Shown here: positions 45,557 to 64,000 of the stretch, one piece after another | Layout: every line of letters begins with the position of its first letter | How positions within the stretch are numbered: position 1 is the first letter of the stretch | NCBI RefSeq assembly: GCF_902168435.1 | Contig: NZ_LR656172.1 | Coordinates: 159,825-223,824, forward strand | Length of the DNA: 64,000 nucleotides | From: Bacillus marasmi | GTDB taxonomy: Bacteria; Bacillota; Bacilli; Bacillales; Cytobacillaceae | Direction of reading: 5' to 3' | Program-made: the position numbers and the translations under genes | Notes under the pieces: model-generated | The model's database searches: none | Told to the model about the DNA's origin: nothing | Seen by the model: the letters and a program-made list of their open reading frames with translations, nothing else

Positions 45557-45739
45557 TTTTTATGTGGGTTAATTGTGTTTATTTTGTGAACTTTGTGTGA
45601 AAGTGATGTGTCGAAGGGGTCGTTCGGAGTAATAGTACAGGAAAAAAACGCAATTCTAATTTATTATATTAATATACTAGTGTTTTTGCAGAATAGTTGG
45701 AGAATTCTTCTGGTTCGTGGGTGATTGGGGGGGGAAGTA

Positions 45740-48259: not shown

Positions 48260-48284
48260 GCCGCGCCACCAAGGTGCCCACCAA

Positions 48285-48375: not shown

Positions 48376-48680
48376 AAAAAAGGTCAGACATCTGTCTGAA
48401 ATTTTAACAATTCCCTATCATTTCCTTTGGATATATTAATGCTTGAATCTGGATATTCAACTCGATGTGATTTAAGTCGCTCGAAAACCGCAGAAAATCT
48501 ACTGTCTAGTGTAATATGGAGCTAGTCTTTCTGTTGAAATGTAATTTATCTTGATTCGACAACAAAATGTAATATGTTGTAAAATAAGGCGTGGTTTCAA
48601 AGTGGAAGATATGGGGATTATTGTATATTCGGTCAGGTAACTCACTTCAATCTTAAAAGCTATTAATATTGCGCGGGATA
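48376..48680 (+). promoter_or_regulatory. Leader region, copy 1 of a duplicated 300-bp control sequence
   Basis: Colinear with 51268-51570. Shared blocks, in order: AGGTCAGACATCTGTC (48381), an Fnr-like TGTGA-N6-TCgC (48466), AAAACCGC (48484), ACTGTC-AGTGT (48500), TTCGACAA followed by AAAATGTAATATGTTGT and AAAATAAG (48554), and TATTAATATTGC (48661). TCGACA at 48556 and TAAAAT at 48580, 18 apart, are a candidate promoter, and ACAACA with TGTTGT is an inverted repeat across it. It precedes the lipoprotein gene. Confidence 0.6.
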
Positions 48681-48808
48681 AGATGCACCTGCATATTTTG
48701 AACAGCAAAGAACGATACTGTTATTACCTTCGGTCGTCCTGTTGGAAAAGAATATCAACCCGAGTATTTCCCTTTCGTTTTTTAGGAGTAATAAATATAA
48801 GGAGATAT

Positions 48809-49666
48809 ATGAAAATGCGTTTCTTAAAGTTTACAAGTTTATTAGTTTTATCGATCACATTAGTGCTAGTAGCAAGTGCTTGCTCGCAACAAACAGAACA
48901 ATCCGGTGGACAATCAAATGGCAAGCTTAATGATAATTACCAGGATGTAATCCTTCAATATCTAAAATCTAAATATAATGAAGAGTTCGGTGTTTCTACG
49001 ATGAGGAAAGAAGACGGATTTGATGGTAATGAAATAATTATTGCCGAATGCTACCCGAAAAAGTTCCAGGAAATAAAATTCGAGGTTAATTATGATAAAG
49101 AGTTTCTTAATGTCCACGATGAGAGTGAAGTTGATGAACTACTAGGGCAAGTGGATCAAAATAATAAAAGCTCATTAATAAAGTGGGAAGAAAATGTAGA
49201 ACCGTATTTAGAAGATACTTATGCAAATGTACTATTTCAAAATCAATACAGTAAGATGCTGTCAGAAAAAATCAGTCTTGAACAGGATTTTCTAGTGCAA
49301 ACGAAATTTGAAAATACGTACCATAATGCGAGCTTAAAGGAGAGTCGGGCGGATTTAGACAGCTATCTTAAATCGCTTGATATCAGCGTATATGCTTCTC
49401 ATTATGTGTTTGTAAAAGATGATGGCACTCCGCTTGAGGATCAATTACTACTCATTAATAAATTAGCTAAAGAAGTTTCGGATTCTAGAATAGGTACTCA
49501 ACAAATTTATATCTATTTCCTAAGTACATTTACCCCTACAGAGATAAAAGACAGCTATTTCGCAAACTATGAAGATCCATCAGGATATTACTCACGACTA
49601 GGAACCGTCACATCAAACGCACTAATCACAATAGAAGACGGAAAAGTAACAGACATAAATATCTAA
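48809..49666 (+). CDS. Lipoprotein of unknown function
   Basis: 285 residues. A lipoprotein signal peptide ends in LVLVASAC with the acylated cysteine near residue 24, then a Q/S/G-rich linker. The mature part is acidic and mixed alpha/beta; no family recognised. ATG 48809 follows AAGGAGA; the frame is open further upstream without a ribosome site. It is the first gene behind leader copy 1 and is followed by the FHA protein gene, so an outer-face role in the same system is likely. Confidence 0.75.
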   Translation: MKMRFLKFTSLLVLSITLVLVASACSQQTEQSGGQSNGKLNDNYQDVILQYLKSKYNEEFGVSTMRKEDGFDGNEIIIAECYPKKFQEIKFEVNYDKEFLNVHDESEVDELLGQVDQNNKSSLIKWEENVEPYLEDTYANVLFQNQYSKMLSEKISLEQDFLVQTKFENTYHNASLKESRADLDSYLKSLDISVYASHYVFVKDDGTPLEDQLLLINKLAKEVSDSRIGTQQIYIYFLSTFTPTEIKDSYFANYEDPSGYYSRLGTVTSNALITIEDGKVTDINI

Positions 49667-49707
49667 GGTGCCTCTAAGGTGCCTGTCACCACCCGAATTT
49701 TGTCGAA
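49667..49707 (+). repeat. Dispersed repeat with duplicated head
   Basis: CTAAGGTGCCT occurs twice in a row; the second continues as a full GGTGCCTGTCACC copy (49678-49707). It abuts the lipoprotein stop codon. Confidence 0.9.
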
Positions 49708-49928
49708 TGATAAAGAGGGATTTTAATGGCACATGGAAATCAGTAGCTCTATTTAATAAAATGTTAGATTCATATTGCATAAGTGAGCTGGAAAGTATTA
49801 TTGCTAACGGGATACATCAGGACTTTGAAGGGAATGGAAATGAAAAAGGGTGGCCGTAACCACTTTGGTTTGCCAAGAAGTGGTATGGGTCAGTCAATAG
49901 ATTACTATTTTAAAAGCGGGAGATAGAT

Positions 49929-51176
49929 ATGGGACGTACAACAGTGGAACAGAGTACAAACAGTTATATAGTCACAAATCGATTAGTTCAACCAGAGGCG
50001 ATTAATGAGCGCGAATTGAATTCGATTGCCGGAAAGCTTCTAGAAACTCTTATTCCAGTGAACACTGAAACGACGAAAAAGGGGATTATTTTAAAAAGCG
50101 CCATCGTCGATATGATACCATTGCAGGCTTATTTTAGCGGGATTGTTACTAAGAAAATGTTCCTGGATGTTGCCATACAGCTCATCGACATCGTTCAAGA
50201 ATGCAAAAAGAACTTAATGAATGAGAACAACTTAATGCTGGATTTTGATTATATTTTCCTTAATCCACGAACCAAAAAACTCAAATGTATTTTTTGGCCA
50301 ATTGTTGACAATCAAAACCCGCATATACCGTCAGAGTTTTTTAAGGATTTCCCTTTTCGGGTTATTTTTACAAAGCACGAAGACCATGGTTATGTTACGA
50401 ACTATTTGCAGTTTTTCCAAAACCAAGCACCTTTTTCAATTAATGGTTTTGAAAAATTAATCTTTGAACTCACGGGCAAGTCGATTGAGGATAAATCGTA
50501 TTTACCAACTGATTCAGTGAGATTGCATGGAAATAAGAATCAATCAAATAAGCTAGCTGGGGAAAAAGGGAACACCGGGGACATCGCCTATAACCTTTTT
50601 GGTCAGCAAAATCATGCAACTATGCCGGAAAAATCGAAATCGTCAGCGCCTTGTCCAAAATGCGGCGGTGTAAATGACGAAACCGCAAATTTCTGTGTGA
50701 GCTGTGGGTCACCTTTAATGGTGGGAAAAGAAAACGTGCAAGAACCTTTGGCAGCAGTGAAAATTGATCCTAGCCCTCAGACTAAAACGAAAACACAAAC
50801 ATTTAGTGAAACCACGGTGTTGGGTGCGGAGGGCTTCGATAATGGTACGACGGTGCTAGGGGCAGAAGCCTTGGAAGAACCAACCTTTCCTTATTTAATC
50901 AGAGAGAAAACTCAAGAAAAGATTCTTGTGGACAAGCCTTCTTTTCGGATTGGTAAGGAGCGGAGGTATTGTGATTATTTCGTTGCCGATAACAATGCGG
51001 TGAGTCGCAGTCATGCTGATATTCTCACAAAAGCAGGGCGCTACTATATTGTTGATAACAACTCGACCAACAAAACATATATCGATGGTCGGGTCGTTCC
51101 AGTCCAAAAAGAAGTAGAAATCTTCTCAGGCACCAAACTCAAACTCGCCAACGAAGAATTCGCCTTTTACATATAA
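49929..51176 (+). CDS. FHA-domain protein with DUF6382-like N-terminus and zinc ribbon
   Basis: 415 residues, no membrane helix. Residues 1-165 resemble the DUF6382 domain found in front of FHA domains in Firmicutes. A zinc ribbon, CPKCGG...CVSCG, is near 242-260. A linker holds SETTVLGAE and NGTTVLGAE, two T-x-V-L motifs. The FHA domain (about 325-412) has FRIGKERRYCDYFV, then NNAVSRSHADI and DNNSTNKTYIDG, with the R, S-R-x-H and N residues that read phosphothreonine. FHA domains prefer pT-x-x-L/I/V, which the linker itself and the membrane scaffold at 55.5 kb offer many times. GGGAG precedes the ATG. Confidence 0.88.
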   Translation: MGRTTVEQSTNSYIVTNRLVQPEAINERELNSIAGKLLETLIPVNTETTKKGIILKSAIVDMIPLQAYFSGIVTKKMFLDVAIQLIDIVQECKKNLMNENNLMLDFDYIFLNPRTKKLKCIFWPIVDNQNPHIPSEFFKDFPFRVIFTKHEDHGYVTNYLQFFQNQAPFSINGFEKLIFELTGKSIEDKSYLPTDSVRLHGNKNQSNKLAGEKGNTGDIAYNLFGQQNHATMPEKSKSSAPCPKCGGVNDETANFCVSCGSPLMVGKENVQEPLAAVKIDPSPQTKTKTQTFSETTVLGAEGFDNGTTVLGAEALEEPTFPYLIREKTQEKILVDKPSFRIGKERRYCDYFVADNNAVSRSHADILTKAGRYYIVDNNSTNKTYIDGRVVPVQKEVEIFSGTKLKLANEEFAFYI

Positions 51177-51240
51177 GGTGCCTGTCACCACCCGAAATTT
51201 GTCGATTTTTTTGCCCGTTTCTAATGGAGGAGCGGGTTTT
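51177..51240 (+). repeat. Dispersed repeat followed by a terminator-like hairpin
   Basis: GGTGCCTGTCACC copy (51177-51205) joined to the stop codon of the FHA gene, then CCCG...CGGG and TTTTTG, a weak terminator like the one at 48320. Confidence 0.75.
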
Positions 51241-51267
51241 TGTTTTTGTTGGTCATAATTATTGTGG

Positions 51268-51590
51268 GAAAAGAAAGGTCAGACATCTGTCCTAATTTCT
51301 AACAATTTTCTGACAATTAGGTTCGTGTGCCAAAATATTTAAATTCAGAAAAAATTTTAAGTGTGATATAAATCACTTAAAAACCGCGTCAAATCAACTG
51401 TCAAGTGTTAAATGTCGCTAAATTTCCTATAAAAATGTATTTTTACTCGATTCGACAATAAAATGTAATATGTTGTAAAATAAGACATAGTTTCTAAGTG
51501 AAAGTTTTGGGAATTATTGTATTTTACATAAAGTCTAAGCTGAAGTTAAATAATCTATTAATATTGCACAATAAAATATATACAAAACTA
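51268..51590 (+). promoter_or_regulatory. Leader region, copy 2 of the duplicated control sequence
   Basis: Paralogue of 48376-48680 with nearly constant spacing (offset about 2.9 kb). TGTGATATAAATCACT at 51362-51377 fits the Fnr site TGTGA-N6-TCACA with one mismatch, better than copy 1. The TCGACA/TAAAAT candidate promoter is kept. It leads into the hairpin array and the PP2C gene. Confidence 0.6.
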
Positions 51591-51686
51591 TAGTATGTTC
51601 CTAGATTAAGTAATCAAGTTACTAGGTCCGGTGGTGGCGGGAGTGTTCTATAAACCAAAACTCGGGTAGAAATACGTAGAAGTGTC

Positions 51687-52154
51687 TCATAGAGAGGTTC
51701 TATGAGACAAAACTCGGTTAGGAAATCGAAGAAGTGTCTCATAGAGAGGTTCTATGAGACAAAACTCGGTTAGGAAATCGAAGAAGTGTCTCATAGAGAG
51801 GTTCTATGAGACAAAACTCGGGTAGGAATTAGAAGAAGTGTCTCATAGAGAGGTTCTATGAGACAAAACTCGGTTAGGAATTAGAAGAAATGTCTCATAG
51901 AGAGGTTCTATGAGCCAAAACTCGGTTAGGAAATCGAAGAAGTGTCTCATAGAGAGGTTCTATGAGCCAAAACTCGGGTAGAAATTAGAAGAAGTGTCTC
52001 ATAGAGAGGTTCTATGAGCCAAAACTCGGTTAGGAAATCGAAGAAGTGTCTCATAGAGAGGTTCTATGAGCCAAAACTCGGGTAGAAATTAGAAGAAGTG
52101 TCTCATAGAGAGGTTCTATGAGCCAAAACTCGGGTAGAAATTAGGAGAAATGAA
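51687..52154 (+). repeat. 52-bp hairpin array, family A, nine units
   Basis: CTCATAGA starts at 51687, 51739, 51791, 51843, 51895, 51947, 51999, 52051 and 52103: nine units with an exact 52-bp period. Each has CTCATAGAGAGGTTCTATGAG in two arms (CTCATAGA and TCTATGAG), then ACAAAACTCGG or CCAAAACTCGG. A worn unit lies just before, at about 51645. No open frame runs through it. Confidence 0.97.
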
Positions 52155-52920
52155 CTCATAGAGGGTTCATGGGTTCAAAACCCCGGAGCGATGCAAGAGA
52201 AATGAACTCATAAAGGGTTCATGAGTTCAAAACACCGGAGCAATACAGGAGAAATGAACTCATAAAGGGTTCATGAGTTCAAAACACCGAAACAATTCAG
52301 GAGAAATGAACTCATAGAGGGTTCATGAGTTCAAAACCCCGGAGCGATGCAGGAGAAATGAACTCATAAAGGCTTCATGAGTTCAAAACCCCGGAGCAAT
52401 CCAGGAGAAATGAACTCATAGAGGGTTCATGAGTTCAAAACCCCGGAGCGATCCAAGAGAAATGAACTCATAGAGGGTTCATGAGTTCAAAACTCCGAAG
52501 CGATCGAAGAGAAATGAACTCATAGAGGGTTCATGAGTTCAAAACACCGAAACAATTCAGGAGAAATGAACTCATAGAGGGTTCATGAGTTCAAAACCCC
52601 GGAGCGATCCAAGAGAAATGAACTCATAGAGGGTTTATGAGTTCAAAACCCCGGAGCGATGCAGGAGAAATGAACTCATAAAGGTTTCATGAGTTCAAAA
52701 CCCCGGAGCAATCCAAGAGAAATGAACTCATAGAGGGTTCATGAGTTCAAAACCCCGGAGCGATCCAAGAGAAATGAACTCATAAAGGGTTCATGAGTTC
52801 AAAACACCGGAGCGATGCAAGAGAAATGAACTCATAGAGGGTTCATGAGTTCAAAACTCCAGAGCAATCCAGGAGAAATGAACTCATAAAGCGTCCAAGG
52901 GTTCAAAGACGAAAACTATA
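52155..52920 (+). repeat. 52-bp hairpin array, family B, fifteen units
   Basis: Fifteen units continue the same 52-bp period (one interval appears to be 51) from 52156 to 52883. Each has GAACTCAT, then AGAGGGTTC or AAAGGGTTC, then ATGAGTTC, followed by AAAACCCCGGAGC. Arms pair over 8 bp. The family differs from A in sequence but not in spacing or layout, and the last unit is worn. About 100 bases later the PP2C gene begins. Confidence 0.97.
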
Positions 52921-52988
52921 TTCGCAGAAACGGATGCGCATCGCAACTCAAATAACTGCACTATTTTTAACAAAGAAGGTTTTAAAAA

Positions 52989-53756
52989 ATGGAAGTATTA
53001 ACTGCAATTTGTACTGATGTTGGGATTAAGAAGGCGACAAATCAGGATAGTTTGTGTTTGAAGGTCGCCGAGACATCCATCGGAAAAGTCGTGCTCGCGA
53101 TTATCTGTGACGGGATGGGGGGACTTGCGAAGGGGGAGGTTGCCAGCGCTAGTGTTGTTAATGCCTTTTCGGATTGGTTTGAAAATGAGCTGCCATCTCA
53201 GCTCACGCATAATGATTTTGATGAGATTCAGTATCGCTGGGAGCGGATCATAAGAGAGCAAAATCAGCGGATTGCTGAGTATGGGCGGAACATCAGGATT
53301 CAACTTGGCACAACATTAACCGCGCTGCTGCTGATTGATACGAAATTTATGTTGATTGGTCATGTCGGTGACTCGAGGGTTTATCGGATTAACACCAAGC
53401 TCGAGGTCTTGACGGAGGACCAAACGGTGGTCGGCCGTGAAGTTAGACGAGGCGTGCTGACGCCGGAGCAAGCCAAGATTGACCCTAGACGGAATGTCCT
53501 TTTACAGTGCATCGGGGCGTCAAAACTAGTTGAGCCAGAGTTCATTCGCGGGACGCCTGAACGAGGTGATGTGTACATGCTTTGTTCGGATGGTTTTCGC
53601 CACATGATTAGCGAGGACGAGATTTATCAGGCATTTTCCCCGCAAGGATTGATGGATGAAGCTGTTATGAAAAATAAAGCAGTAGAACTGGTGGAACTAA
53701 ATAAGCAACGACAAGAACTGGATAATATTTCGGTTATGCTTATCAAAATTCTGTAA
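52989..53756 (+). CDS. PP2C-type protein phosphatase
   Basis: 255 residues. Metal-binding residues are in CDGMGGLAKGE (near 38-48), GHVGDSRVY (near 122), LCSDGFRHMI (near 198) and DNISVML at the end, as in PrpC/Stp. It removes phosphate from Ser/Thr in the cytoplasm and should oppose the kinase encoded 15 bases downstream. AAGAAGG precedes the ATG. Confidence 0.93.
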   Translation: MEVLTAICTDVGIKKATNQDSLCLKVAETSIGKVVLAIICDGMGGLAKGEVASASVVNAFSDWFENELPSQLTHNDFDEIQYRWERIIREQNQRIAEYGRNIRIQLGTTLTALLLIDTKFMLIGHVGDSRVYRINTKLEVLTEDQTVVGREVRRGVLTPEQAKIDPRRNVLLQCIGASKLVEPEFIRGTPERGDVYMLCSDGFRHMISEDEIYQAFSPQGLMDEAVMKNKAVELVELNKQRQELDNISVMLIKIL

Positions 53757-53771
53757 GGACGGGGATTAAGT

Positions 53772-55457
53772 TTGGCTCAAATTGGATCCGTAATTGACGG
53801 AAAATATGAAATATTGAAGCTGATTGGCCAAGGCGGGATGTCTAAGGTTTACCTTTCGATGGACAAGCGTCTGAACAAGCAGTGGGCCGTAAAAGAGATT
53901 GAAAAAAGGGCAAAGGATAAGAACAACGAGGTCATTATTCAAAGTGCGATTGCCGAAGCGAATATGATTAAAAGGCTTGATCATCCAGCCCTGCCGCGGA
54001 TTGTCGATATTATCGATAACGGGGATGTCATTTTCGTTATCATGGACTATATCGAGGGGGAGCCGCTGAGCAAGATTCTTGATGAGTATGGTGCCCAGCC
54101 GCAGGATGTCGTGATTGAATGGGCGAAGCAGCTTTGTGAAGTTCTCGATTATTTACATACATGCAAACCGCCGATTATTTATCGGGATATGAAGCCAGCA
54201 AATGTGATGCTGAAGCCTGATGGAAATCTGAAGCTGATAGATTTTGGGATTGCTAGAGAATATAAGGAACAAAACCTGGCCGATACGGTGAGTCTTGGAA
54301 CAAAGGGCTACGCTGCGCCAGAGCAGTTCGGCGGAAAAGGGCAAACTGATCCACGGACGGATGTGTATTGCTTAGGTGTGACGCTGTACCATTTAGTGAC
54401 AGGGCATAACCCTTGCGAGCCGCCTTATGAGCTCTATCCGATTCGCCATTGGAATCCGCAACTATCAGGGGGCCTCGAGCGGATTATTCAGAAATGTACG
54501 CAGCTCAATCCGGATGACCGCTATCAATCCTGTGCGGAGCTCTTATATGCGCTCCATCACTATGAGGAAATTGATGATGTATATCGGGCTAAGCAAGTGC
54601 GGAAGCTGCGCAATTTTAGCATGGTGGCCGGTAGTGCTTTGCTGTTCTTGCTGGTCGGAATATTCGGACAGGTGATGAATGTGCGCACGAATAATGCCGA
54701 TTACGACAGTAACATTCAGATGGCAGAGAAAGCGGCGACTGATACTACTAAAATCGACCATTATTTAACGGCAATCGATATTAAGCCGACTGTTAATGAA
54801 GCTTATCTTGGAATCATTGATGCGTTCAAAGGTGATGCGGCTTTTACGGTTGAAGAAGAGGAAGCTTTTAAGAAAAAAATCAATAACCATATCACTGAGT
54901 TTCGCGAAAATCCAGATTATGCTGAGCTCGCATTTGAAATCGGAAAGGTGTATTGGTATTACTACGATTATGGGAAGTCGGCCGATAGCGATAATCAAGT
55001 TACGAGAATGAAGAGCTCGATTCAGTGGTTCGAGGACGCAGTCCAATATGGCTCAAAGGATAGCGACTATTATGAAATGGCGACGACTTATCGGGATATC
55101 GGCAAGTTCAATCGCGATATTACCCTTCATATTGAGGAAGCGTCGGATAAAGGAAAGTATCGACCTTATTGGGAGAACATCAAAGATTTAAATCTGATGA
55201 TGGCTAAAAATCCTGATGAAAATGAGATTGTGAAACTAGAACTCTACAAATTAACGATTTATTCGATTGAAACTTATGCAAGGAAGTTTAAATTGGATGG
55301 TGTGAAGGAAAAGGATCTTCGTTCTGTATTTGAAACGGTCAAGAAAAGCACGAAAAATGTTGAGGTTACTGCAGAGAAAACCGAGCAAATCAAAAATGAT
55401 GTAATCAAGCGCTTTGAGACAACGGAAAAGGCGATTGAAAATGCATATCGGAAATAG
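53772..55457 (+). CDS. Transmembrane Ser/Thr protein kinase
   Basis: 561 residues. The kinase domain (about 11-270) has IGQGGMSKVY, AVKEI, YRDMKPANVML (HRD is YRD), LIDFGIA and GYAAPEQ, all catalytic residues present. One membrane helix (about 280-300) is followed by about 255 residues outside the cell, helical and TPR-like, not the PASTA repeats of PrkC. It starts at TTG with GGGGA 7 bases upstream. With the phosphatase before it and the T-x-V-L scaffold after it, it is likely the sensor and writer of this system. Confidence 0.93.
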   Translation: MAQIGSVIDGKYEILKLIGQGGMSKVYLSMDKRLNKQWAVKEIEKRAKDKNNEVIIQSAIAEANMIKRLDHPALPRIVDIIDNGDVIFVIMDYIEGEPLSKILDEYGAQPQDVVIEWAKQLCEVLDYLHTCKPPIIYRDMKPANVMLKPDGNLKLIDFGIAREYKEQNLADTVSLGTKGYAAPEQFGGKGQTDPRTDVYCLGVTLYHLVTGHNPCEPPYELYPIRHWNPQLSGGLERIIQKCTQLNPDDRYQSCAELLYALHHYEEIDDVYRAKQVRKLRNFSMVAGSALLFLLVGIFGQVMNVRTNNADYDSNIQMAEKAATDTTKIDHYLTAIDIKPTVNEAYLGIIDAFKGDAAFTVEEEEAFKKKINNHITEFRENPDYAELAFEIGKVYWYYYDYGKSADSDNQVTRMKSSIQWFEDAVQYGSKDSDYYEMATTYRDIGKFNRDITLHIEEASDKGKYRPYWENIKDLNLMMAKNPDENEIVKLELYKLTIYSIETYARKFKLDGVKEKDLRSVFETVKKSTKNVEVTAEKTEQIKNDVIKRFETTEKAIENAYRK

Positions 55458-55469
55458 GGAGGGATCGGA

Positions 55470-56549
55470 ATGGATGCAAATACTTGGTTCACCATTTCAA
55501 TCGTCGGCTATTCCCTTGCAGTAGTGCTTTTAATTGTGACGATTATTTTGTTTTATAAAATGAACATTAAGGCTATCATTGGCGATTTGAGTGGGAAGAC
55601 AGCAGCTAGGCAGATTCAAGAGATTCGCGAGCATAATACGAATTCGGGTCAAAAGCGGTACATGCCGAGTGCATTTAATGTTGAACGCGGAAGTTTGACC
55701 GAGCCTGTTAGTTCTTATCCTTCGCGTTCGAAGCGGCTTGGTAATTCAAACCGGCTTGGTAATAGGGGCGGAACTGGCCAAACGGTTGCGCCTATCTCAA
55801 AGCGGCTGTTTGGAAGAGGGACTACTGGCCGTACAGGTGAGCAAGTACCAAAACCTGTGCTTAATGCTAGTAAAAATAAAGAAGTTGAAGCTGTTGCAAT
55901 TCCGGAAGCGCTTATCAATGAAACGGAGGTATTAATTGATGGTACTGAGGTTCTGATTCCAATTGATAGCACTGACCATAAAGCCAAAAGCAAAGTTACT
56001 AATGATGTCCAGTTGCCTTATGCAGAAACGGTGGTCTTGGCGCCGGAAGGAGGAACTGTAGTTCTAGAGCCAGATGAAGCTAAAGTAGAACAGGTATATG
56101 GCAACGAAACGATGGTCTTGCCACCAAATGAAGGAACCGAAGTGTTGGCAACAAACGATGGCACAGAGGTATTGTTTGCGGGAAGTGAAACGATGGTCTT
56201 GCCACCAAATGAAGGAACCGAAGTGTTGGCAACAAACGATGGCACAGAGGTATTGTTTGCGGGAAGTGAAACGATGGTCTTGGCACCAAATGAAGGAACT
56301 GAAGTGTTGGCAACAAACGATGGCACAGAGGTATTGATTGTTGGAAGTGAAACGGTGGTCTTGGCACCAAATGAAGGAACTGAAGTGTTGGCAACAAACG
56401 ATGGCACCGAAGTACTTAGTGATGATGAAGGAACAACGGTCCTATATCCAACAGCGGAGCTTGACCAAGAGGATAGCGATACTAATCAGGCTATACCATT
56501 CAGAATTGTCAAAAACATCAAGATTATCCACAGTGATGAAACAGTTTAA
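55470..56549 (+). CDS. Membrane protein with 17 T-x-V-L motifs, probable phosphothreonine scaffold
   Basis: 359 residues. An N-terminal membrane helix (about 8-28) leaves the rest in the cytoplasm. After a basic part with KRLGNSNRLGN and SKRLFGRG, the chain carries 17 T-x-V-L motifs (TEVL, TMVL, TVVL, TTVL), most preceded by acidic residues or glycine. Twelve lie in four 27-residue repeats, GTEVLATNDGTEVL-(FAGS)-ETMVLPPNE, encoded by exact 81-bp DNA repeats at 56106-56429. pT-x-x-L is the form bound by FHA domains, so I infer that the kinase phosphorylates these sites and the FHA protein at 49.9 kb binds them. GGAGGG lies 6 bases before the ATG. Confidence 0.8.
   Translation: MDANTWFTISIVGYSLAVVLLIVTIILFYKMNIKAIIGDLSGKTAARQIQEIREHNTNSGQKRYMPSAFNVERGSLTEPVSSYPSRSKRLGNSNRLGNRGGTGQTVAPISKRLFGRGTTGRTGEQVPKPVLNASKNKEVEAVAIPEALINETEVLIDGTEVLIPIDSTDHKAKSKVTNDVQLPYAETVVLAPEGGTVVLEPDEAKVEQVYGNETMVLPPNEGTEVLATNDGTEVLFAGSETMVLPPNEGTEVLATNDGTEVLFAGSETMVLAPNEGTEVLATNDGTEVLIVGSETVVLAPNEGTEVLATNDGTEVLSDDEGTTVLYPTAELDQEDSDTNQAIPFRIVKNIKIIHSDETV
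56106..56429 (+). repeat. 81-bp in-frame tandem repeat
   Basis: Units begin at 56106, 56187, 56268 and 56349. The first two are identical over almost their full length; later ones differ at a few bases. Confidence 0.93.
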
Positions 56550-56615
56550 CCAAGGTTACTTTATGATTTTTCATATAGATGGGAAAGTTGAATGATTTTT
56601 CAAGGGGAGAGAGAA

Positions 56616-59600
56616 ATGCGGAGAAAGCGTAGTTACAAAAAAAGGAGCAAACGCAGCTGGCTCGCAATTGTTCTAGCCATTCTGTTGGTTGCCTACAACG
56701 TACCAATTGGTGTTTTGGGAAATGTATTTGCTGAATCAGGGGATGATCAGCAAATCGAAACGACTGAACCGGTGAATGCTGAAGAGGAGAATACCGAATC
56801 TGGAGCGGAGAACACTGAGCCTGAGGTGACGGAAGAAACTGAAGAACCAGTAGAACCAGCAGATCCAGAGGAGACAGAGGACCCAGTAGAACAAGAAGAA
56901 CCCGAAGAGCCTGTGATTGAAACTCATAAAGTCACAGTCCAAAAAAGTGGAGAAGGTTCTGGTACCGTAAGCATCAATGGAACTTCTTATTCAGGCAGCG
57001 CAATTGTTGTTCCAGAAGGTCCGGTTGAAATTGTTGTGACACCAGCAGCGAGTTCCAAGCTAAAGTCTATCAAAAAAGGACTAAATACAACTATCCCGTT
57101 TGTTGAGGATAGGGAAAACGGAAACTATAAAGCGACGATTGATTCAGTAACAAATGATGTAACAATTAGGGTCGAGTTTGAATTAAAAGAATATCAGATG
57201 ACTTTCAGTGGATATAGCCATGGTAGGGTAGTCAATCATTCCGGACAGACTGTTGGAACCAACGGAGGAACAGAGAGTATCGAGCACGGTACGGACTACA
57301 CGTTTACCGTATCTCCAAATGAGGGCTATCATCCTGTAGTGACAATTGATGGGAAAGATACCACTGAATTGGATGATGTTACTGTAACAGCCCTTTCTGG
57401 TGGTAAGTTCAAGTACACAATAAACAATGTTAAAAATGTACATTCAATTGAGGCGAAATTTGTCATTAACACGTACGTGCTAACATTTGATTATGATAGT
57501 TCACAAGGTGCGGTCGAGAAGGGCTCTGTTCAAGATGGTATTGTCGAGGAGAGTCCTACAGCAGATACAATCATTGCCAACGGTGGGACCGTTAAAGTTG
57601 AACATGGGAAAAGGCCGTCTTTTAAAGTAACCCCAATCGAAGGCTATCATATTAAAAGTATTAAATTTGGTGGCGATTATATTAGTCTACCAAATGACGT
57701 GAAGGAGAAAACACTGTCCTATGAGTTTGCAGTGCCTGAGGTGAATAGTGATAAAACGGTTACTGTAATATTTGAGATTAATACTTATCAATTACGTGTT
57801 AATGATCCTAATAACGGCGACGTTTCACTTGATAGAAGCTCAGTTGAACATGGCCAAAATGCGGTTGTAACAATCAAACCAAAAACAGACTATAAGGTAA
57901 CTAAGCTCACTGTCAATGGAACTCCTGTCGACCTGGACAACGATGCTAATTTTACGATAAATGATAGCAATAACAGTGCGAGTTTCGCAGTTAAGAATAT
58001 ACAACGTGATACTAATATTGTCGTAACTATCGAAAGAATTCAGGAAGTAACTGGTCCTTGGCAGAACTATGTTTCAATTGAAACGCTTGTAGGTACTAAA
58101 GTCGCTCAAATTGATGATAATAAATTAATCTATTCAAAAGATGCAAAGTTAAATATTAAGCCATTGGATAATGAAATAATTAGTTTTGACTTCTTAAGTC
58201 TTAGTATTACAGATATATTGAACGATTTACCAGGACCTTGGGGCACCAATCATACATTAATTGAGAATTCTATTATTGAAAGGCTCCAGTTAAAGGATCG
58301 ACAAAGGAACAACCCATTAATCGTAAAACCTGAACAGGATTTATATCTTTTATTTGACCGAAAGGAACCTGCTATTGAGAACCTAAAATTAGAGGGTGAT
58401 AACAAGGCGACCGTTGACGGAAAAGTGTGGTACAGCGGTAACGTTAAGGTTGTTTTTGATCTGAATAATCAGAAGGAAAGCTACAAGGGTATTGATTTTT
58501 CAACGGATATAGATAAGGTTTATTACAGCAAAGACGATGAAGCGGCAATTGAGCTCCCTATCGCTGCTGATTCTAGCTACAAATTCGACTTAGTGAATGG
58601 AAATTTTCAAAATAACTATAAAGTTTGGGCGCTAGATAAAGCGGGAAATAAAGCTGAAACAAAAGCAACTGATGTAAATATTGACCAAGCCGTGCCAACG
58701 CTTGACGGGGCTGTTGAGGTCAAGCAAACGGGATCAGAAATCTTGAATAACCTATTCTTTGGAATGTTCTTTAAGGAAAAAATCGAGGTTACGGTAAAAG
58801 CAATCGACGCTGCTTCTGGGATTAAAGATATTAAGCTGATTGCTAAACAAGACAATAAGGCTGATAAAATCATTTCTGGTGATATTAGGAAAAGTAACAG
58901 TGACCGGAAAGCTGACGTTACTTTCACTCTTGATGAAGAAAACTTTGATGGAAAGTTCGCCATTGAAGTGACAGACCATGTTAATAATACGAAAACGTAT
59001 GATTTAACAGCGGACAATCTCGACCCTAAAGGTAATGGAAGATTTATCATTGACCATAAGGCTCCGACGGTGGAGTTAACCGTCACTCCTGATAAGGAAA
59101 ATGAACAACCGTATGTTGTTGAGGATGAGTCAAACGATACTGTTACCGAATTCTATAGCCAAGATGTTGAATTAGGTATCAAAGTTGAGGATGAGGCATC
59201 AGGTATTCATTCTGTTAAAATCAATCATGGTGACGAGACGCTAGAAAGTTATGATTTTACTGACGGTACTAAGGAGCAATTGAAGCCAACGATTGAGCCG
59301 ATTCATACAAGCACGCTTGTAGAAAAGGGTAGACTGCACGATTTTACCATAGCGGTTAAGGATAATTCTGGTAATAAAAATAATGTGGAGCAAACGCGCA
59401 AAACGATCTATATCGATGAAAATGCGCCAACATTAGCAGGTGGTAAAAATGCTGTTACGTTTGAAGTGGAAAACGACAGCAAGTTTGCTGAAATCTTGAA
59501 TTACTTGACTTTCGGCACGTTCTTTAATAAACAAATTGCGATTACAGTCCATGGTGAGGATGACGCTGCCGGAATTAAGGAAATGAACTTGGTGGCTATA

Positions 59601-62600
59601 CCAGGTGAAGACCAAGACGAGCCGAACTTAGTCCGTGAAAGCTATGAAGAGTCCGGTTTAACGGCTGAGGCGAAATACACACTTGATGGTGATTATTTTC
59701 AAGGAACCTTCAATGTGGAAATAACCGACAATATTGGAAATAAGAGTGTGACTCTAGTTAATGCTGAGCATTCCAACATGGAAGATACAGATAGCGGAAT
59801 TGTGATGATCGAGAAAAATGAACCAGTTCCTTCTATTATTATTGAACCACAGGCTGATGTTGTTCCTTATGTGGATGAGTCAGATGTGCATTTCTATAGT
59901 GGGGATGTTCATTATACTGTAGGTGTAGAGGACGCTGATTCAGGTGTTAATGCCGTTCAGATTGATGTAAATGGCGATGTGGTCAATGTTGAAGATGATG
60001 AGGATGCTTCAGCAGCTTCTTATTATTATCATAATAAGGATCAAGCAACATTAAGTACGGATGATATTGAAGTGCTTGAATCGAATAATTTTAATATAAA
60101 TAAAGATGGTTCTTACAAGATTCGTGTTGACGCGATTGATAACGCTGGTAATGTTGGTCATGATGATAAAACGATCTTTATCGATAGAACTAGTCCGACG
60201 ATTACAGACTTTAAGTTCGCTGAACAGAATGGGAAGGATGGCCTTCAAGAAGCGATTGAAATTATGGATTACGGTTTTTATTTTAAAGAACCAATTCAAG
60301 TGACAATTGGCGCGGAAGACCCCGATGTCGTAGATGATTTTGAAGCGACAAGTAAAGTGAAGGAAATGTGGATTTACCTCCAGGATTATGAGAATGGTAA
60401 GTTCTATGGCGTTGAAAATGGTGAGCTGAAGGAAATTGCTGGAGCGAATGCTGTGAAGGCGATTCCGACCTCAGGTGAGTTGAAATTCACTGTTCCGGCT
60501 GCATTTAAAGGACAAATTTTTGCTAAAGCAACTGACTTTGTTGATAACACCGGAGAGTATGTGACTCCAGAGGGTGCAGTTATTGAAGACGAGGATAAGC
60601 ATAAGGAAGAAACACATATTGATTTTAAAAAGGCAGAAACAAGCTATAAAGATAATGGTGATGTTGAGCTTTACAACAAAAACGTTGATGTCGACCTAAC
60701 AGTTACGGATACGTATTCAGGCCTGAAGGAAATTCAGTGGTCTATAGTGGCGCCTCATGATACGGCGAACAACCAAAGCGGCATCATTAAAATTAATAAT
60801 GATAAAACCTACGGTGAAGGCAGTAATCCGGATGGCTGGCAGCAAACAAAGACTGACCGCAACTTGGTTACGGAAATGAAGAAGACGCTGACAGTTAGCA
60901 ATAACAGTAATGATATCGTTGTTAAAGTAAAAATCACGGACCGTTCTGGTAATACGTCAGAGGATGAAATCAAGTTCAGCATCGATAAAACCACACCGAC
61001 GATGAATGTTACTTACGATAACAATACGGCTGATGGGCAATTTGCTGATTTTTACAAAGAAAATCGTACAGCAACGATTGTGATTACAGAACGGAACTTC
61101 AAGCCGGAGGATGTCGTCCATGTCATTACGAATACGGATGGTGTGATTCCGAAGTTAGTTGGCTGGTCAACTAAGCCAAATGGGAATGATCCAGACAAAA
61201 CAACGCATACGGCAACTGTGCAATATACTGCTGATGGGGATTATACTTTTGATCTTAAGTACACAGATAATGCCGGAAATAATGCAGCTCCGTTTGCGCA
61301 GCATAAGTTTACTTTGGATAAAACAAAGCCTGTGATTCAGGTGACATATAATAATTCGGCGGCAGCAAATGGGAACTATTACATGAAGGCTCGTACAGCG
61401 ACAATTACAATCACTGAGCACAATTTTGAGACAAGCCGGATTAAAATCGCTGGGTCTGCAAGCGATAATGGTGCTGGGACAGCGTTCCCGGGTGCTAGCG
61501 GCTGGTCGACGAAGGGCGATGTGCACACAGCAACAATCAATTATAGCGCAGACGGTAAATACAACTTTGACATTGATTACACTGATAAAGCCGGAAATAT
61601 TGCGGCTGATTACAAGGCAGACGAGTTCATTGTTGACCAAACGGCTCCGAAGCTTGAGATTACAGGTGTTGCTGATAAGTCAGCGAATAATGGTGATGTG
61701 GCACCGGTCGTTACTTACTCTGATACAAACTTCAATAAGAGTGCGGTATCGATTAAACTAACAGGTGCGAACCACGGTCCGGTTGATTTGAAGGGTAGCG
61801 CGGGGGATGCTCCGAATGGCGGAGTCTTTACTTTTAGTAATTTTGAGAAAAAGAAAGAAAATGACGATCTCTATACATTGACTGCTAAGCTTGTTGATTT
61901 TGCCGGAAACGAAACAACGCAGACGATTCAGTTCTCGGTCAATCGTTTCGGTTCGGTGTATGTGTTTGATGATTCGTTAAAGTCTATCGATGGTAAATAC
62001 GTTCGCCAGGAAATGGATGTTATTTTAACTGAGACAAATGTAGATAGATTGAAGCATGATTCGATTCTTGTAAAAATGACGAAGAATGGAACGCCGACTG
62101 ATTTGGTTGAGGGTAAGGACTATACAGTGTCTTCAACAGGTGGTAACGGTTCATGGAGCCAGTATAAGTATGTGGTGAAAAAGGAACTATTTGCTGGTGA
62201 TGGCCGCTATACTGTGGCGCTATATTCAGAGGATTTAGCTGGAAATATTAACGAAAATATTGATGAGACGAAGAAGGCGGAGATTTCGTTTGGTGTAGAT
62301 AAGACGGCTCCAGTTATCGTGCCGATCGATATCGAAAGCGGAGCGCAGTATCCGGTTGATACGAAGTCTGTGACGTTTTCAGTCAAGGATAATCTCGTGC
62401 TCGACGGTGCGAAGGTGCTATTGAATAATGAAGAGATTGATTACAAGGTTGACGGTGAGAACTACACATTTGCGGTCCCAAGCTCAAATTCGAAGCAGGA
62501 TGTAAAGGTTATAGCGGTAGACGCAGCAGGGAACAAATTTACGAAGTCTGTTGACGATTTCCTTGTCTCAACTAATCTATTTGTTCGCTGGTACAACAAC

Positions 62601-62711
62601 ACACCATTGTTCCTAGGTTCCATCGGTGGAATCGGCGGAATCGGGGCAATCATCGCAACGGCATCAGTCGTCCTAAACAAAAAGCGCCGCAAACTAGAAG
62701 TAGAAGAATAA
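56616..62711 (+). CDS. Giant Ig-like surface protein with C-terminal membrane anchor
   Basis: 2031 residues. A basic signal peptide (MRRKRSYKKRSKRSW then a hydrophobic stretch to about 47) leads to a Glu/Pro/Thr-rich stalk (about 50-110). Residues about 110-480 hold four repeats of the Flg_new/Listeria-Bacteroides type (GSGTVSINGTSYSGSAIVVP, HGRVVNHSGQ, GAVEKGSV, NGDVSLDRSS). The rest is about twelve Ig-like modules, ten of which carry D-x-x-GN (DKAGNK, DNSGNK, DNIGNK, DNAGNV and others). The end is a glycine-rich membrane helix (about 1995-2018) and the basic tail NKKRRKLEVEE. There is no LPXTG, so it stays as a membrane protein with a short inner tail. AAGGGGAGAG precedes ATG 56616. Probably an adhesin or long sensor. 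Confidence 0.88.
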   Translation: MRRKRSYKKRSKRSWLAIVLAILLVAYNVPIGVLGNVFAESGDDQQIETTEPVNAEEENTESGAENTEPEVTEETEEPVEPADPEETEDPVEQEEPEEPVIETHKVTVQKSGEGSGTVSINGTSYSGSAIVVPEGPVEIVVTPAASSKLKSIKKGLNTTIPFVEDRENGNYKATIDSVTNDVTIRVEFELKEYQMTFSGYSHGRVVNHSGQTVGTNGGTESIEHGTDYTFTVSPNEGYHPVVTIDGKDTTELDDVTVTALSGGKFKYTINNVKNVHSIEAKFVINTYVLTFDYDSSQGAVEKGSVQDGIVEESPTADTIIANGGTVKVEHGKRPSFKVTPIEGYHIKSIKFGGDYISLPNDVKEKTLSYEFAVPEVNSDKTVTVIFEINTYQLRVNDPNNGDVSLDRSSVEHGQNAVVTIKPKTDYKVTKLTVNGTPVDLDNDANFTINDSNNSASFAVKNIQRDTNIVVTIERIQEVTGPWQNYVSIETLVGTKVAQIDDNKLIYSKDAKLNIKPLDNEIISFDFLSLSITDILNDLPGPWGTNHTLIENSIIERLQLKDRQRNNPLIVKPEQDLYLLFDRKEPAIENLKLEGDNKATVDGKVWYSGNVKVVFDLNNQKESYKGIDFSTDIDKVYYSKDDEAAIELPIAADSSYKFDLVNGNFQNNYKVWALDKAGNKAETKATDVNIDQAVPTLDGAVEVKQTGSEILNNLFFGMFFKEKIEVTVKAIDAASGIKDIKLIAKQDNKADKIISGDIRKSNSDRKADVTFTLDEENFDGKFAIEVTDHVNNTKTYDLTADNLDPKGNGRFIIDHKAPTVELTVTPDKENEQPYVVEDESNDTVTEFYSQDVELGIKVEDEASGIHSVKINHGDETLESYDFTDGTKEQLKPTIEPIHTSTLVEKGRLHDFTIAVKDNSGNKNNVEQTRKTIYIDENAPTLAGGKNAVTFEVENDSKFAEILNYLTFGTFFNKQIAITVHGEDDAAGIKEMNLVAIPGEDQDEPNLVRESYEESGLTAEAKYTLDGDYFQGTFNVEITDNIGNKSVTLVNAEHSNMEDTDSGIVMIEKNEPVPSIIIEPQADVVPYVDESDVHFYSGDVHYTVGVEDADSGVNAVQIDVNGDVVNVEDDEDASAASYYYHNKDQATLSTDDIEVLESNNFNINKDGSYKIRVDAIDNAGNVGHDDKTIFIDRTSPTITDFKFAEQNGKDGLQEAIEIMDYGFYFKEPIQVTIGAEDPDVVDDFEATSKVKEMWIYLQDYENGKFYGVENGELKEIAGANAVKAIPTSGELKFTVPAAFKGQIFAKATDFVDNTGEYVTPEGAVIEDEDKHKEETHIDFKKAETSYKDNGDVELYNKNVDVDLTVTDTYSGLKEIQWSIVAPHDTANNQSGIIKINNDKTYGEGSNPDGWQQTKTDRNLVTEMKKTLTVSNNSNDIVVKVKITDRSGNTSEDEIKFSIDKTTPTMNVTYDNNTADGQFADFYKENRTATIVITERNFKPEDVVHVITNTDGVIPKLVGWSTKPNGNDPDKTTHTATVQYTADGDYTFDLKYTDNAGNNAAPFAQHKFTLDKTKPVIQVTYNNSAAANGNYYMKARTATITITEHNFETSRIKIAGSASDNGAGTAFPGASGWSTKGDVHTATINYSADGKYNFDIDYTDKAGNIAADYKADEFIVDQTAPKLEITGVADKSANNGDVAPVVTYSDTNFNKSAVSIKLTGANHGPVDLKGSAGDAPNGGVFTFSNFEKKKENDDLYTLTAKLVDFAGNETTQTIQFSVNRFGSVYVFDDSLKSIDGKYVRQEMDVILTETNVDRLKHDSILVKMTKNGTPTDLVEGKDYTVSSTGGNGSWSQYKYVVKKELFAGDGRYTVALYSEDLAGNINENIDETKKAEISFGVDKTAPVIVPIDIESGAQYPVDTKSVTFSVKDNLVLDGAKVLLNNEEIDYKVDGENYTFAVPSSNSKQDVKVIAVDAAGNKFTKSVDDFLVSTNLFVRWYNNTPLFLGSIGGIGGIGAIIATASVVLNKKRRKLEVEE

Positions 62712-63019
62712 GTGGTGTGGCGGTGCCGCTTTGGTGCTTCGGCGGCGCTTTGGTTCCGCTTCGAAAAACCGGTCCCACTTCAGTTCCGCTTTTGCGCCAA
62801 ACCGGTGCCGCCAAACCGGTGCCACTTCGGTTCCGCTTTTGCGCCAAACCGGTGCCTGTCACCACCCGATTTTTCTTGTTTCACAAATGTTTCACGGAGC
62901 ACTGAATAAGGTGCTCGACACCATCTGTGGGAAACGTGGGGAGCGTAATATGTGGTGGAATCTCATATTCACTTACGTGTCCTTTCGCGTTTCCCCTTAG
63001 ATTGGAGGTAATAGTACAA
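62712..63019. other. GC-rich repeat region
   Basis: Two near-copies of TTCCGCTTTTGCGCC-AAACCGGTGCC (about 62783 and 62830) and related GGTGCCGC strings run into a type 2 dispersed repeat at 62851-62898. No gene supported. Confidence 0.65.
62851..62898 (+). repeat. Dispersed repeat, variant type 2
   Basis: GGTGCCTGTCACC head, then TTTTTCTTGTTTCAC and a second TGTTTCACGG. Confidence 0.85.
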
Positions 63020-63301
63020 ATGTTAAGTAGTCCAATACTATCGAATATACTGCTAATCATAGTTCTTTTGATTAATATCATTACGATGATTTTAGTCATT
63101 GCATCGATGAAAAGGAATAAGCTGACGAAGGGATTAGTGAAGGAGTATCAAGTATCTTCAGTACAGACTGCGGCTGGATTAGGCGTAGGCTCTGATCAAG
63201 GGCGAGGTTATGATGATTCTGGGGTAGTATTTTGCCGAAGCTGCGGAACACAATACGACTCCGCAAACTCAGCCTGCCCTCGCTGCAAAACATCAAGATA
63301 A
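63020..63301 (+). CDS. Small membrane protein with C-terminal zinc ribbon
   Basis: 93 residues. One membrane helix (about 7-29), a linker, and CRSCGTQYDSANSACPRC at the end, a two-CxxC zinc ribbon like that in the FHA protein. TGGAGGT lies about 11 bases before the ATG. It closes the kinase/surface-protein block and may dock on another zinc-ribbon protein; that is inference. Confidence 0.75.
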   Translation: MLSSPILSNILLIIVLLINIITMILVIASMKRNKLTKGLVKEYQVSSVQTAAGLGVGSDQGRGYDDSGVVFCRSCGTQYDSANSACPRCKTSR

Positions 63302-63308: not shown

Positions 63309-64000
63309 AGTATAGTAAATAGGTCAAATAAATAGAAAAAGGCCACCGTTTTCATTGTAAAATGGAAGAACCTATCACAGAACTTCCGATATTACTACCC
63401 TTCCAAGGAGATGAAAACGATGGCATATTCAATATTTAACCACATACAAGGTAAAAAAGGAAGTCGATGGGCAGAGTTTGTAAGAGAGACAGGGACGGAG
63501 AATCTAATGTTAGTGGCAATCGATGCCGCAAAGTATACACAAAAAGCAATGATTTGTACTTTTTATGGAGACATTTTAGTAAAACCATTTGAATTTGATG
63601 CGTCCATGACAGGTTTCGAATATCTTAATAAGATTATTCGGTCCGAAAAGGTGAAAAATGGACTTAAAGAAGTAGTAGTGGGAATTGAAACCACTGGACA
63701 TTATTACGAGGATCTTGTTAGACGATGCCATTCTGATGGCTATCATGTGAGGACTTTGAATGCTGCGACAACTGCCCAGGAAAGACAAGCCCTATTAAAC
63801 TGGTCGAAAACCGATAATTTAGATTTAATGGCGATTGTTCAATCCATGATTCATGGGCGGGGGACATCGAATGAATTAGCTTCTGGTAATGTTCTTACTT
63901 TACAAAAGCTAACACGTGCCCGTCGTGAATTAGTAGAGGAACGAACAGAGACACAAAATTTGATTCGGATGCATATGGACCATATCTTTAGGGAATTCCA
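63309..64000 (+). mobile_element. IS110-family element, right part outside the window
   Basis: The non-coding left part (about 63309-63419) precedes an IS110-type transposase. In this family one non-coding end encodes the bridge RNA that selects donor and target; which end is used cannot be told here. The left boundary is inferred from the break in the dispersed repeat. Confidence 0.7.
63420..64000 (+). CDS. IS110-family transposase, 3' end cut by window
   Basis: 193 residues visible. The DEDD RuvC-like N-terminal domain shows LVAIDAAKYTQKAMICTFYG (first D), GIETTGHYYEDLVRRC (E) and TDNLDLMAIVQ (D), matching IS110 transposases. AAGGAGATG lies before the ATG at 63420. The C-terminal Tnp_20 domain with its catalytic serine lies beyond the window. 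Confidence 0.88.
   Translation, partial: MAYSIFNHIQGKKGSRWAEFVRETGTENLMLVAIDAAKYTQKAMICTFYGDILVKPFEFDASMTGFEYLNKIIRSEKVKNGLKEVVVGIETTGHYYEDLVRRCHSDGYHVRTLNAATTAQERQALLNWSKTDNLDLMAIVQSMIHGRGTSNELASGNVLTLQKLTRARRELVEERTETQNLIRMHMDHIFREF

Follow-up and report, generated by a model that had tools for sequence, protein, structure and literature searches.

The stretch of DNA analysed here, referred to as the window, comprises 64,000 nucleotides of the Bacillus marasmi genome (assembly GCF_902168435.1, contig NZ_LR656172.1, positions 159,825 to 223,824 of the forward strand), and between its positions 48,376 and 63,301 it carries genes for a lipoprotein, an FHA domain protein, a phosphatase, a kinase, a membrane protein with a long row of T-x-V-L motifs, a giant Ig-like protein and a small protein with two CxxC pairs. 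Judged by sequence, the last six of these are tseJ, tseF, tseD, tseH, tseI and tseK of T7SSe, a type VII secretion system (T7SS) that Garrett, Higginson and Palmer defined in 2024 (PMC11217815). It is probable that the locus makes up the signalling and envelope half of a T7SSe that has lost its core (TseC, TseB and TseA1) and its toxin cassette, and that the row of motifs on TseH is a strip that would be written by the kinase TseD, read by the motor ATPase TseC and by TseJ, and erased by the phosphatase TseF. The main text of the T7SSe description assigns DUF6382 and FHA domains to TseJ, phosphatase and kinase functions to TseF and TseD, and one transmembrane (TM) helix to TseK; it notes a conserved phosphothreonine site in TseC and raises control by phosphorylation, leaving open what the kinase, the phosphatase and the FHA domains act on, and it names no motif in TseH or TsdH (PMC11217815). 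The TseH strip would provide a named substrate, its sites and its readers. The Thr-specific array on TseH and the existence of motorless copies in the window's genome (G000) and a congener (G019) go beyond that main text; no other papers on T7SSe or TseH were found in a literature search that lacked most subscription papers and all bioRxiv preprints.

The gene set that the earlier note had listed, all on one strand, was borne out by the open reading frame (ORF) listing and by Pfam. Every gene named there is open and lies on the + strand, TseH has exactly 17 T-x-V-L motifs, and the giant protein TseI is 2039 residues long from its first ATG and 2031, the length given in that note, from the next in-frame ATG. 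The statement that no described system has this full set was wrong, as the components are those of the published T7SSe (PMC11217815), and the idea of a new kind of system was rejected. In agreement with T7SSe membership, TseJ combines DUF6382 with an FHA domain, TseF and TseD are encoded next to TseJ, and TseH, TseI and TseK follow the kinase; not found were the TseC motor ATPase with its FHA domain, TseB and the WXG100 proteins TseA and TseA2.

The neighbourhoods of these genes in relatives show what the complete arrangement looks like. A same-family search of 151 genomes gave a TseJ match in 54, and genes were called in the neighbourhoods of 29 genomes, namely 26 of the 54 and three loci (L005, L008 and L009), each counted as a genome of its own; counts are over 28 genomes, since G074 showed no T7SS and was excluded. 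Several genomes have a second FHA match, in a protein of about 1530 residues encoded roughly 9 kb upstream of the TseJ match. Within a type VII secretion cluster, the genes tseJ, tseF, tseD, tseH, tseI and tseK occupy the 3' half. The 5' half encodes an EssC-type ATPase (TIGR03928, 1083 bits), a YukD-like protein and WXG100 proteins; after these come genes for a lipoprotein, for a protein that carries an Mbeg1-like hydrolase domain and for small partners of the WXG100 type. The TseC-type ATPase is encoded in 25 of the 28 genomes (within the fetched neighbourhood in 22, on a different contig in 3), and the three without it are G000, G019 and G031. In 25 of the 28 the phosphatase and kinase genes come immediately after the FHA gene; G020, G105 and G063 (contig end) are the exceptions. 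The window's TseH, TseI and TseK match the same genes of complete loci in the same order (phmmer). The check that the earlier note had named, co-occurrence of these families in the same order in related genomes, thus came out in its favour. Across the phylum, 18 of 398 genomes have a close match to the kinase (E 1e-60 or less), and giant-type and scaffold-type genes lie by this match in four genomes besides the window's own (G003, G292, G372 and G478).

The central evidence for a strip comes from the tails of TseH. The 17 sites in the window span positions 55923-56444, against 0.29 expected from 2000 shuffles of the tail. Of 38 TseH candidates, 29 were kept by eye; one of the nine dropped was the start of a TseI, and the other eight follow kinases without T7SSe context. 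The set kept comprises 20 sequences of clade 1 (the window's type), six of clade 2 (G068, G038 and others, which may be T7SSe or an intermediate) and three from more distant genomes (G372, G478 and G292). The pattern was broadened from T-x-V-L to T-x-[VILM]-L after clade 2 had been seen; clade 1 prefers T-x-V-L and clade 2 T-x-L-L. The 29 tails together contain 264 T-x-[VILM]-L sites, against 15.4 expected from shuffled tails, and 3 S-x-[VILM]-L sites, against 10.6 expected, so that 264 of 759 Thr residues but 3 of 515 Ser residues stand in the motif. Taken singly, every tail shows enrichment (p 0.009 or less), and strict T-x-V-L is enriched at p 0.0005 in 22 of the 29, the remainder being clade 2 and G292. 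In 838 other proteins of at least 100 residues encoded in the same stretches, the motif occurs at 482 of 20,303 Thr and 516 of 21,390 Ser, with no bias between the two, and when proteins with at least three sites are ranked by motif density, the top 23 are all TseH. The same preference is seen when the motif is not fixed beforehand: the positions after every Thr show a 4.4-fold excess of Leu at +3 and a 3.5-fold excess of Val at +2, while the values after every Ser are 0.9 and 0.4. The TseH array is beyond chance, conserved and Thr-specific.

FHA domains are specific for phosphothreonine, and an FHA reader would impose Thr-only use with a fixed residue at +3. The exclusion of Ser from the motif fits this specificity, and the comparison of the 29 tails with the 838 controls agrees with what the earlier note had proposed, a scaffold marked many times over and read by an FHA protein. 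It could be argued instead that the T-x-V-L units serve as a docking motif, structural or hydrophobic, for which phosphate is never required, and the spread of the repeats by tandem duplication speaks for this: an 81-bp tandem repeat in tseH (56106-56414, 3.8 copies, 96% match) holds 12 of the 17 motifs, and recent duplication explains part of the high count. The avoidance of Ser, however, does not follow from duplication alone, and the genes for the kinase, the phosphatase and the FHA protein are adjacent; phosphate-free docking is considered improbable. Apart from the array, TseH has a conserved C-terminal block (about 56487-56546), of the FKIVKDIKIIHT type in clade 1 and in an altered form in clade 2, which is a possible second binding site.

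The density ranking also brought up a 135-residue one-TM protein from a distant genome of the phylum, G457 (L126 9279-9686), that has four Thr-x-hydrophobic-Leu sites and is encoded next to a phosphatase, a kinase and an FHA protein. The 20 kb fetched around it contained no T7SS motor, and the arrangement of writer, strip and reader may therefore extend beyond T7SSe.

The candidate readers of the strip are TseC and TseJ. All 23 TseC sequences with an N-terminus have a canonical FHA core (GR, SxxH and [ST][ST]NGT or SSNGT), recognised by pattern in 21 of them and by inspection in the other 2. As a control, the T7SSb EssC encoded in the window's genome shows no such core at its N-terminus. The closest PDB matches of the TseC FHA domain are GarA and OdhI. 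Both are metabolic regulators in which Thr sites stand ahead of the FHA domain and could be bound by it, a likeness to TseJ, which differs from them in its additional DUF6382 domain and zinc ribbon. Two T-x-[VL]-L sites stand just ahead of the TseJ FHA domain in 7 of 7 sequences, and some members of a wider set keep one of them (G053, most clade-2 copies and second TseJ copies). A Tad-pilus module, to which DUF6382 proteins had pointed, was rejected, the TseJ relative adjoining a T7SS ATPase in 7 of 7 clade-2 loci. The idea that TseJ is carried on plasmids was likewise dropped: among 72,556 plasmid records, TseJ gave one partial match (27% of the query).

Several findings indicate that the locus is a reduced one. 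TseC was found neither in G000, where the best match, at 38% identity, is the single EssC and belongs to a T7SSb, nor in G019 (best match 36% identical). TseA1, TseB and the cassette lipase had no match in G000, G019 or G031, while the same searches did find positive relatives, TseA1/TseB matches being present in G116, G051 and G065; for TseA2 the search covered the 20-kb region only. The lipoprotein encoded ahead of tseJ matches the cassette lipoproteins of relatives at the profile level (hhalign probability 97%), so that by sequence it is probably a leftover of the T7SSe toxin cassette and may have an immunity-type role. Next to it is a scar, the remnant of a small WXG100-like partner gene (tblastn against a two-sequence database, 70% identity, E 3e-5); the scar in G019 is different and consists of the last 28 residues of a WXG100 gene next to tseJ. 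Two copies of an upstream element, 75% identical to each other over about 208 bp, are also present. A 31-bp core within copy 1 matches the region ahead of tseC in the congener G063 at 84% identity, and copy 2 is 68% identical over 162 bp to the region about 90-250 bp upstream of the same gene; the element was not found in the G019 stretch. Taken together, the missing matches to TseC, TseB and TseA1, the cassette scars and the tseC-like upstream elements point to a reduced T7SSe.

Whether the six remaining genes still have a function is a separate question, for which the motorless copies offer a natural test of the module without secretion. They may be a plain relic, useless after the loss of motor and toxin and still open only because that loss is recent, which is a serious possibility and, on balance, a slightly doubtful one. 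The cassette remnants of G000 and G019 differ and are still 70-79% identical to working copies, which suggests losses that were recent and perhaps separate, at least in part, and in G031, also without TseC, the kinase gene is split. Against a relic, the same six genes are kept in two genomes with all six frames open in both, including the 6.1 kb of tseI, and an element like the region upstream of tseC now also stands ahead of the tseF side. The ratios of nonsynonymous to synonymous substitution (dN/dS) between G000 and G019 are 0.036 for TseD, 0.050 for TseF, 0.136 for TseJ, 0.135 for TseI, 0.157 for TseK and 0.191 for TseH, resembling those of motor-bearing pairs, with dS near or above 1 for most module genes limiting the estimate. 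As the losses may be separate and recent, these low values are no proof of a motor-independent function and may mostly reflect the time before the loss.

Both genomes also have a second, intact TseJ-type gene (L039 8375-9460 on contig C36 of G000; L049 11670-12755 in G019), near guaA-like and permease-like genes. Its product is 55% identical to TseJ over residues 1-191 and keeps the FHA core and one T-x-V-L site. In G019 it shares a contig with T7SSb genes, about 28 kb away, and with polymorphic toxin-like pieces, and its G000 counterpart, on a small contig, has the same neighbours. Among 61 genomes, EssB was found in 16 and a TseJ-type match in 15 (weak in G027), the two together only in G000 and G019. 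This co-occurrence and the preserved core and site of the second TseJ, by the T7SSb toxin region, would suit a rewired module in which the T7SSe phospho-proteins now serve the co-resident T7SSb, with the second TseJ as the link. However, the EssC of the same T7SSb is without a phosphothreonine site, the fetched T7SSb stretch has no strip (at most one T-x-V-L per protein), and 28 kb is not close. Rewiring is held to be unlikely. A broader version, in which the kinase-phosphatase-FHA module with its strip and giant protein outlived the motor and was taken over by T7SSb or by surface sensing, again with the second TseJ as link, and in which TseH-like strips are more generally multivalent phosphothreonine switches whose repeat number sets how many readers are gathered, is rated just as unlikely.

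The preferred explanation remains a reduced T7SSe with a phosphothreonine strip. In complete systems, TseD would phosphorylate the T-x-[V/L]-L sites repeated along the cytoplasmic TseH tail, and the resulting strip would recruit the FHA domain of the TseC motor along with TseJ, the layout of whose linker sites, one or two in number, could permit self-binding or chaining. The motor might in this way be gathered or activated beneath the envelope-spanning TseI, and TseF would reset the strip. The earlier note had expected control of the giant protein or of an unseen partner. That partner is likely to be the motor ATPase TseC, and control of the giant protein alone is the less likely alternative; TseC was not found in the window's own genome, and in this strain only TseJ, in two copies, is left as a reader.

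Some observations weigh against this explanation. The TseH sequences share ancestry and have undergone tandem duplication, so that the motif totals do not count independent events, and the conserved motif-free block at the C-terminus means that TseH may have another role as well. The TseJ FHA domain is non-canonical at one position of the phosphate site: in the window it keeps SRSH and STNKT with GK in place of GR, Lys for Arg being general in clade 1, and the clade-2 copies compared keep the Arg and have Gly for Ser. The genome (100% complete) is a draft in 46 contigs. Finally, the T7SSj system has a kinase, a phosphatase and an FHA protein and, by the main text of its description (PMC11217815), no TseH, so a strip is not needed in every such system.

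The features of the locus are collected in Table 1. TseJ matches FHA (E 6.7e-12) and DUF6382 (E 2e-9) in Pfam, with the CxxC pairs of its zinc ribbon at residues 242 and 256 and its linker T-x-V-L sites at residues 295 and 307. TseF has all of the metal-site motifs NQD, DGMGG, GDSR, SDGF and DN, and TseD all of the catalytic motifs AVK, YRD, DFG and GT..Y; TseD has one predicted TM helix and a C-terminal part predicted to lie outside, and the Pfam output contains no PASTA family for it. Hydrophobic segments of TseI are found at both ends, at residues 24 and 2010. The zinc-ribbon matches of TseK are weak and fall under the Pfam cut-offs (DZR 0.0055).

Table 1. Features of the T7SSe-type locus, in window positions.
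Feature	Position	Strand	Basis or remark
Upstream element, copy 1	48466-48672	+	Ahead of lipoprotein gene
Lipoprotein-type ORF	48683-49666, likely start about 48809	+	...ASAC near N-terminus
Lipoprotein	48809-49666	+	Homologue (E 3.7e-45, partial at contig start) ahead of G063 lipoprotein-lipase cassette
Scar: 23-residue remnant of small WXG100-like partner gene P81	49779-49847	+	Between lipoprotein gene and tseJ
TseJ: DUF6382, zinc ribbon, two T-x-V-L linker sites, FHA	49929-51176	+	Pfam
Upstream element, copy 2	51362-51567	+	Between tseJ and tseF
52-bp palindromic tandem repeat array	51641-52907	.	Between tseJ and tseF
TseF: PP2C/PPM phosphatase	52989-53756	+	PP2C_2 1.2e-9
TseD: Ser/Thr kinase	53772-55457	+	Pkinase 2.6e-50
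TseH: one-TM protein, N-terminal TM helix and cytoplasmic tail with 17 T-x-V-L	55470-56549	+	
TseI: giant Ig-like protein	56592-62711	+	Big_13 5.1e-10, Big_3 types (Pfam)
TseK: small one-TM protein with two CxxC	62927-63301	+	Start codon may lie further in

The genes do not form one unbroken run, because a gene-free stretch of 1.8 kb containing a repeat array separates the FHA gene tseJ from the PP2C gene tseF. A hidden gene in this gap (51.2-53.0 kb) was rejected, as the gap holds only the array and an upstream element. The 52-bp unit contains a palindrome of the CTCATAGAG..TTCATGAG type; arrays of it are found on at least 9 contigs of the same genome (56 matches) and also in the corresponding gap of G019 (contig C1 40681-41069). 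It is a dispersed genomic repeat family and no module-specific part. A 30-bp element of the AAGGTGCCTGTCACCACCCGAATTTTGTCG type is present at 48284, 49677 and 51176 and in at least a dozen other places in the window; it recurs across the 64 kb and in G019, often right after stop codons, and looks like a dispersed palindromic repeat. Directly upstream of the locus is a gene for a PAS-PAS-GGDEF-EAL-PilZ protein (45725-48259), in the place of which G019 has a different gene, and downstream an IS110-type transposase gene (63411-64000, 3e-21) runs off the end of the window, where the contig ends as well.

Among known systems, T7SSe is the closest. Its TseJ, TseF, TseD, TseH, TseI and TseK all have counterparts among the window genes; according to the main text of PMC11217815, TseI is a large Ig-like envelope protein, one TM helix and a cytoplasmic tail are described for the TseH counterpart TsdH, and a reverse lipase toxin occurs at one T7SSe locus, as in the relatives studied here. 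The window's genome differs in having no detectable TseC, TseB or TseA1. The same text describes T7SSd of Actinomycetota, which shares TsdA, TsdC, TsdD, TsdH and TsdI and has a conserved phosphothreonine site in TsdC but is without a phosphatase, TseJ, TseK and TseB, and T7SSj of Clostridium, which has the kinase, phosphatase and FHA protein as well as TseI and TseK counterparts but is without a TseH orthologue (PMC11217815). The pseudokinase EssB of T7SSb resembles TseD as a membrane protein with a cytoplasmic kinase-like domain, a likeness in topology stated in that text for TscD (PMC11217815); in contrast to EssB, TseD has catalytic motifs. Profile comparison of EssB with DUF6382 or TseD, against a thin set of 5 EssB sequences, gave hhalign probabilities of 0.2% or less, with no profile match of EssB to TseD or TseJ, and the idea that DUF6382 or TseD is an EssB relative was dropped for want of profile support. 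The nearest functional likeness is to the threonine phosphorylation pathway of type VI secretion systems (T6SS), consisting of PpkA, PppA and Fha, in which a membrane kinase, a phosphatase and an FHA reader switch a secretion system. In Agrobacterium, as PMC3953482 describes, a single phosphothreonine (Thr 14) on the membrane component TssL is bound by Fha and activates secretion. The two machines are not homologous, and in place of one site on TssL there is here a repeat array on a dedicated one-TM protein of Gram-positive bacteria. If the explanation proposed here is true, T7SSe would have a Gram-positive counterpart of this T6SS pathway in which a repeat array replaces the single site, with TseH as its multivalent version.

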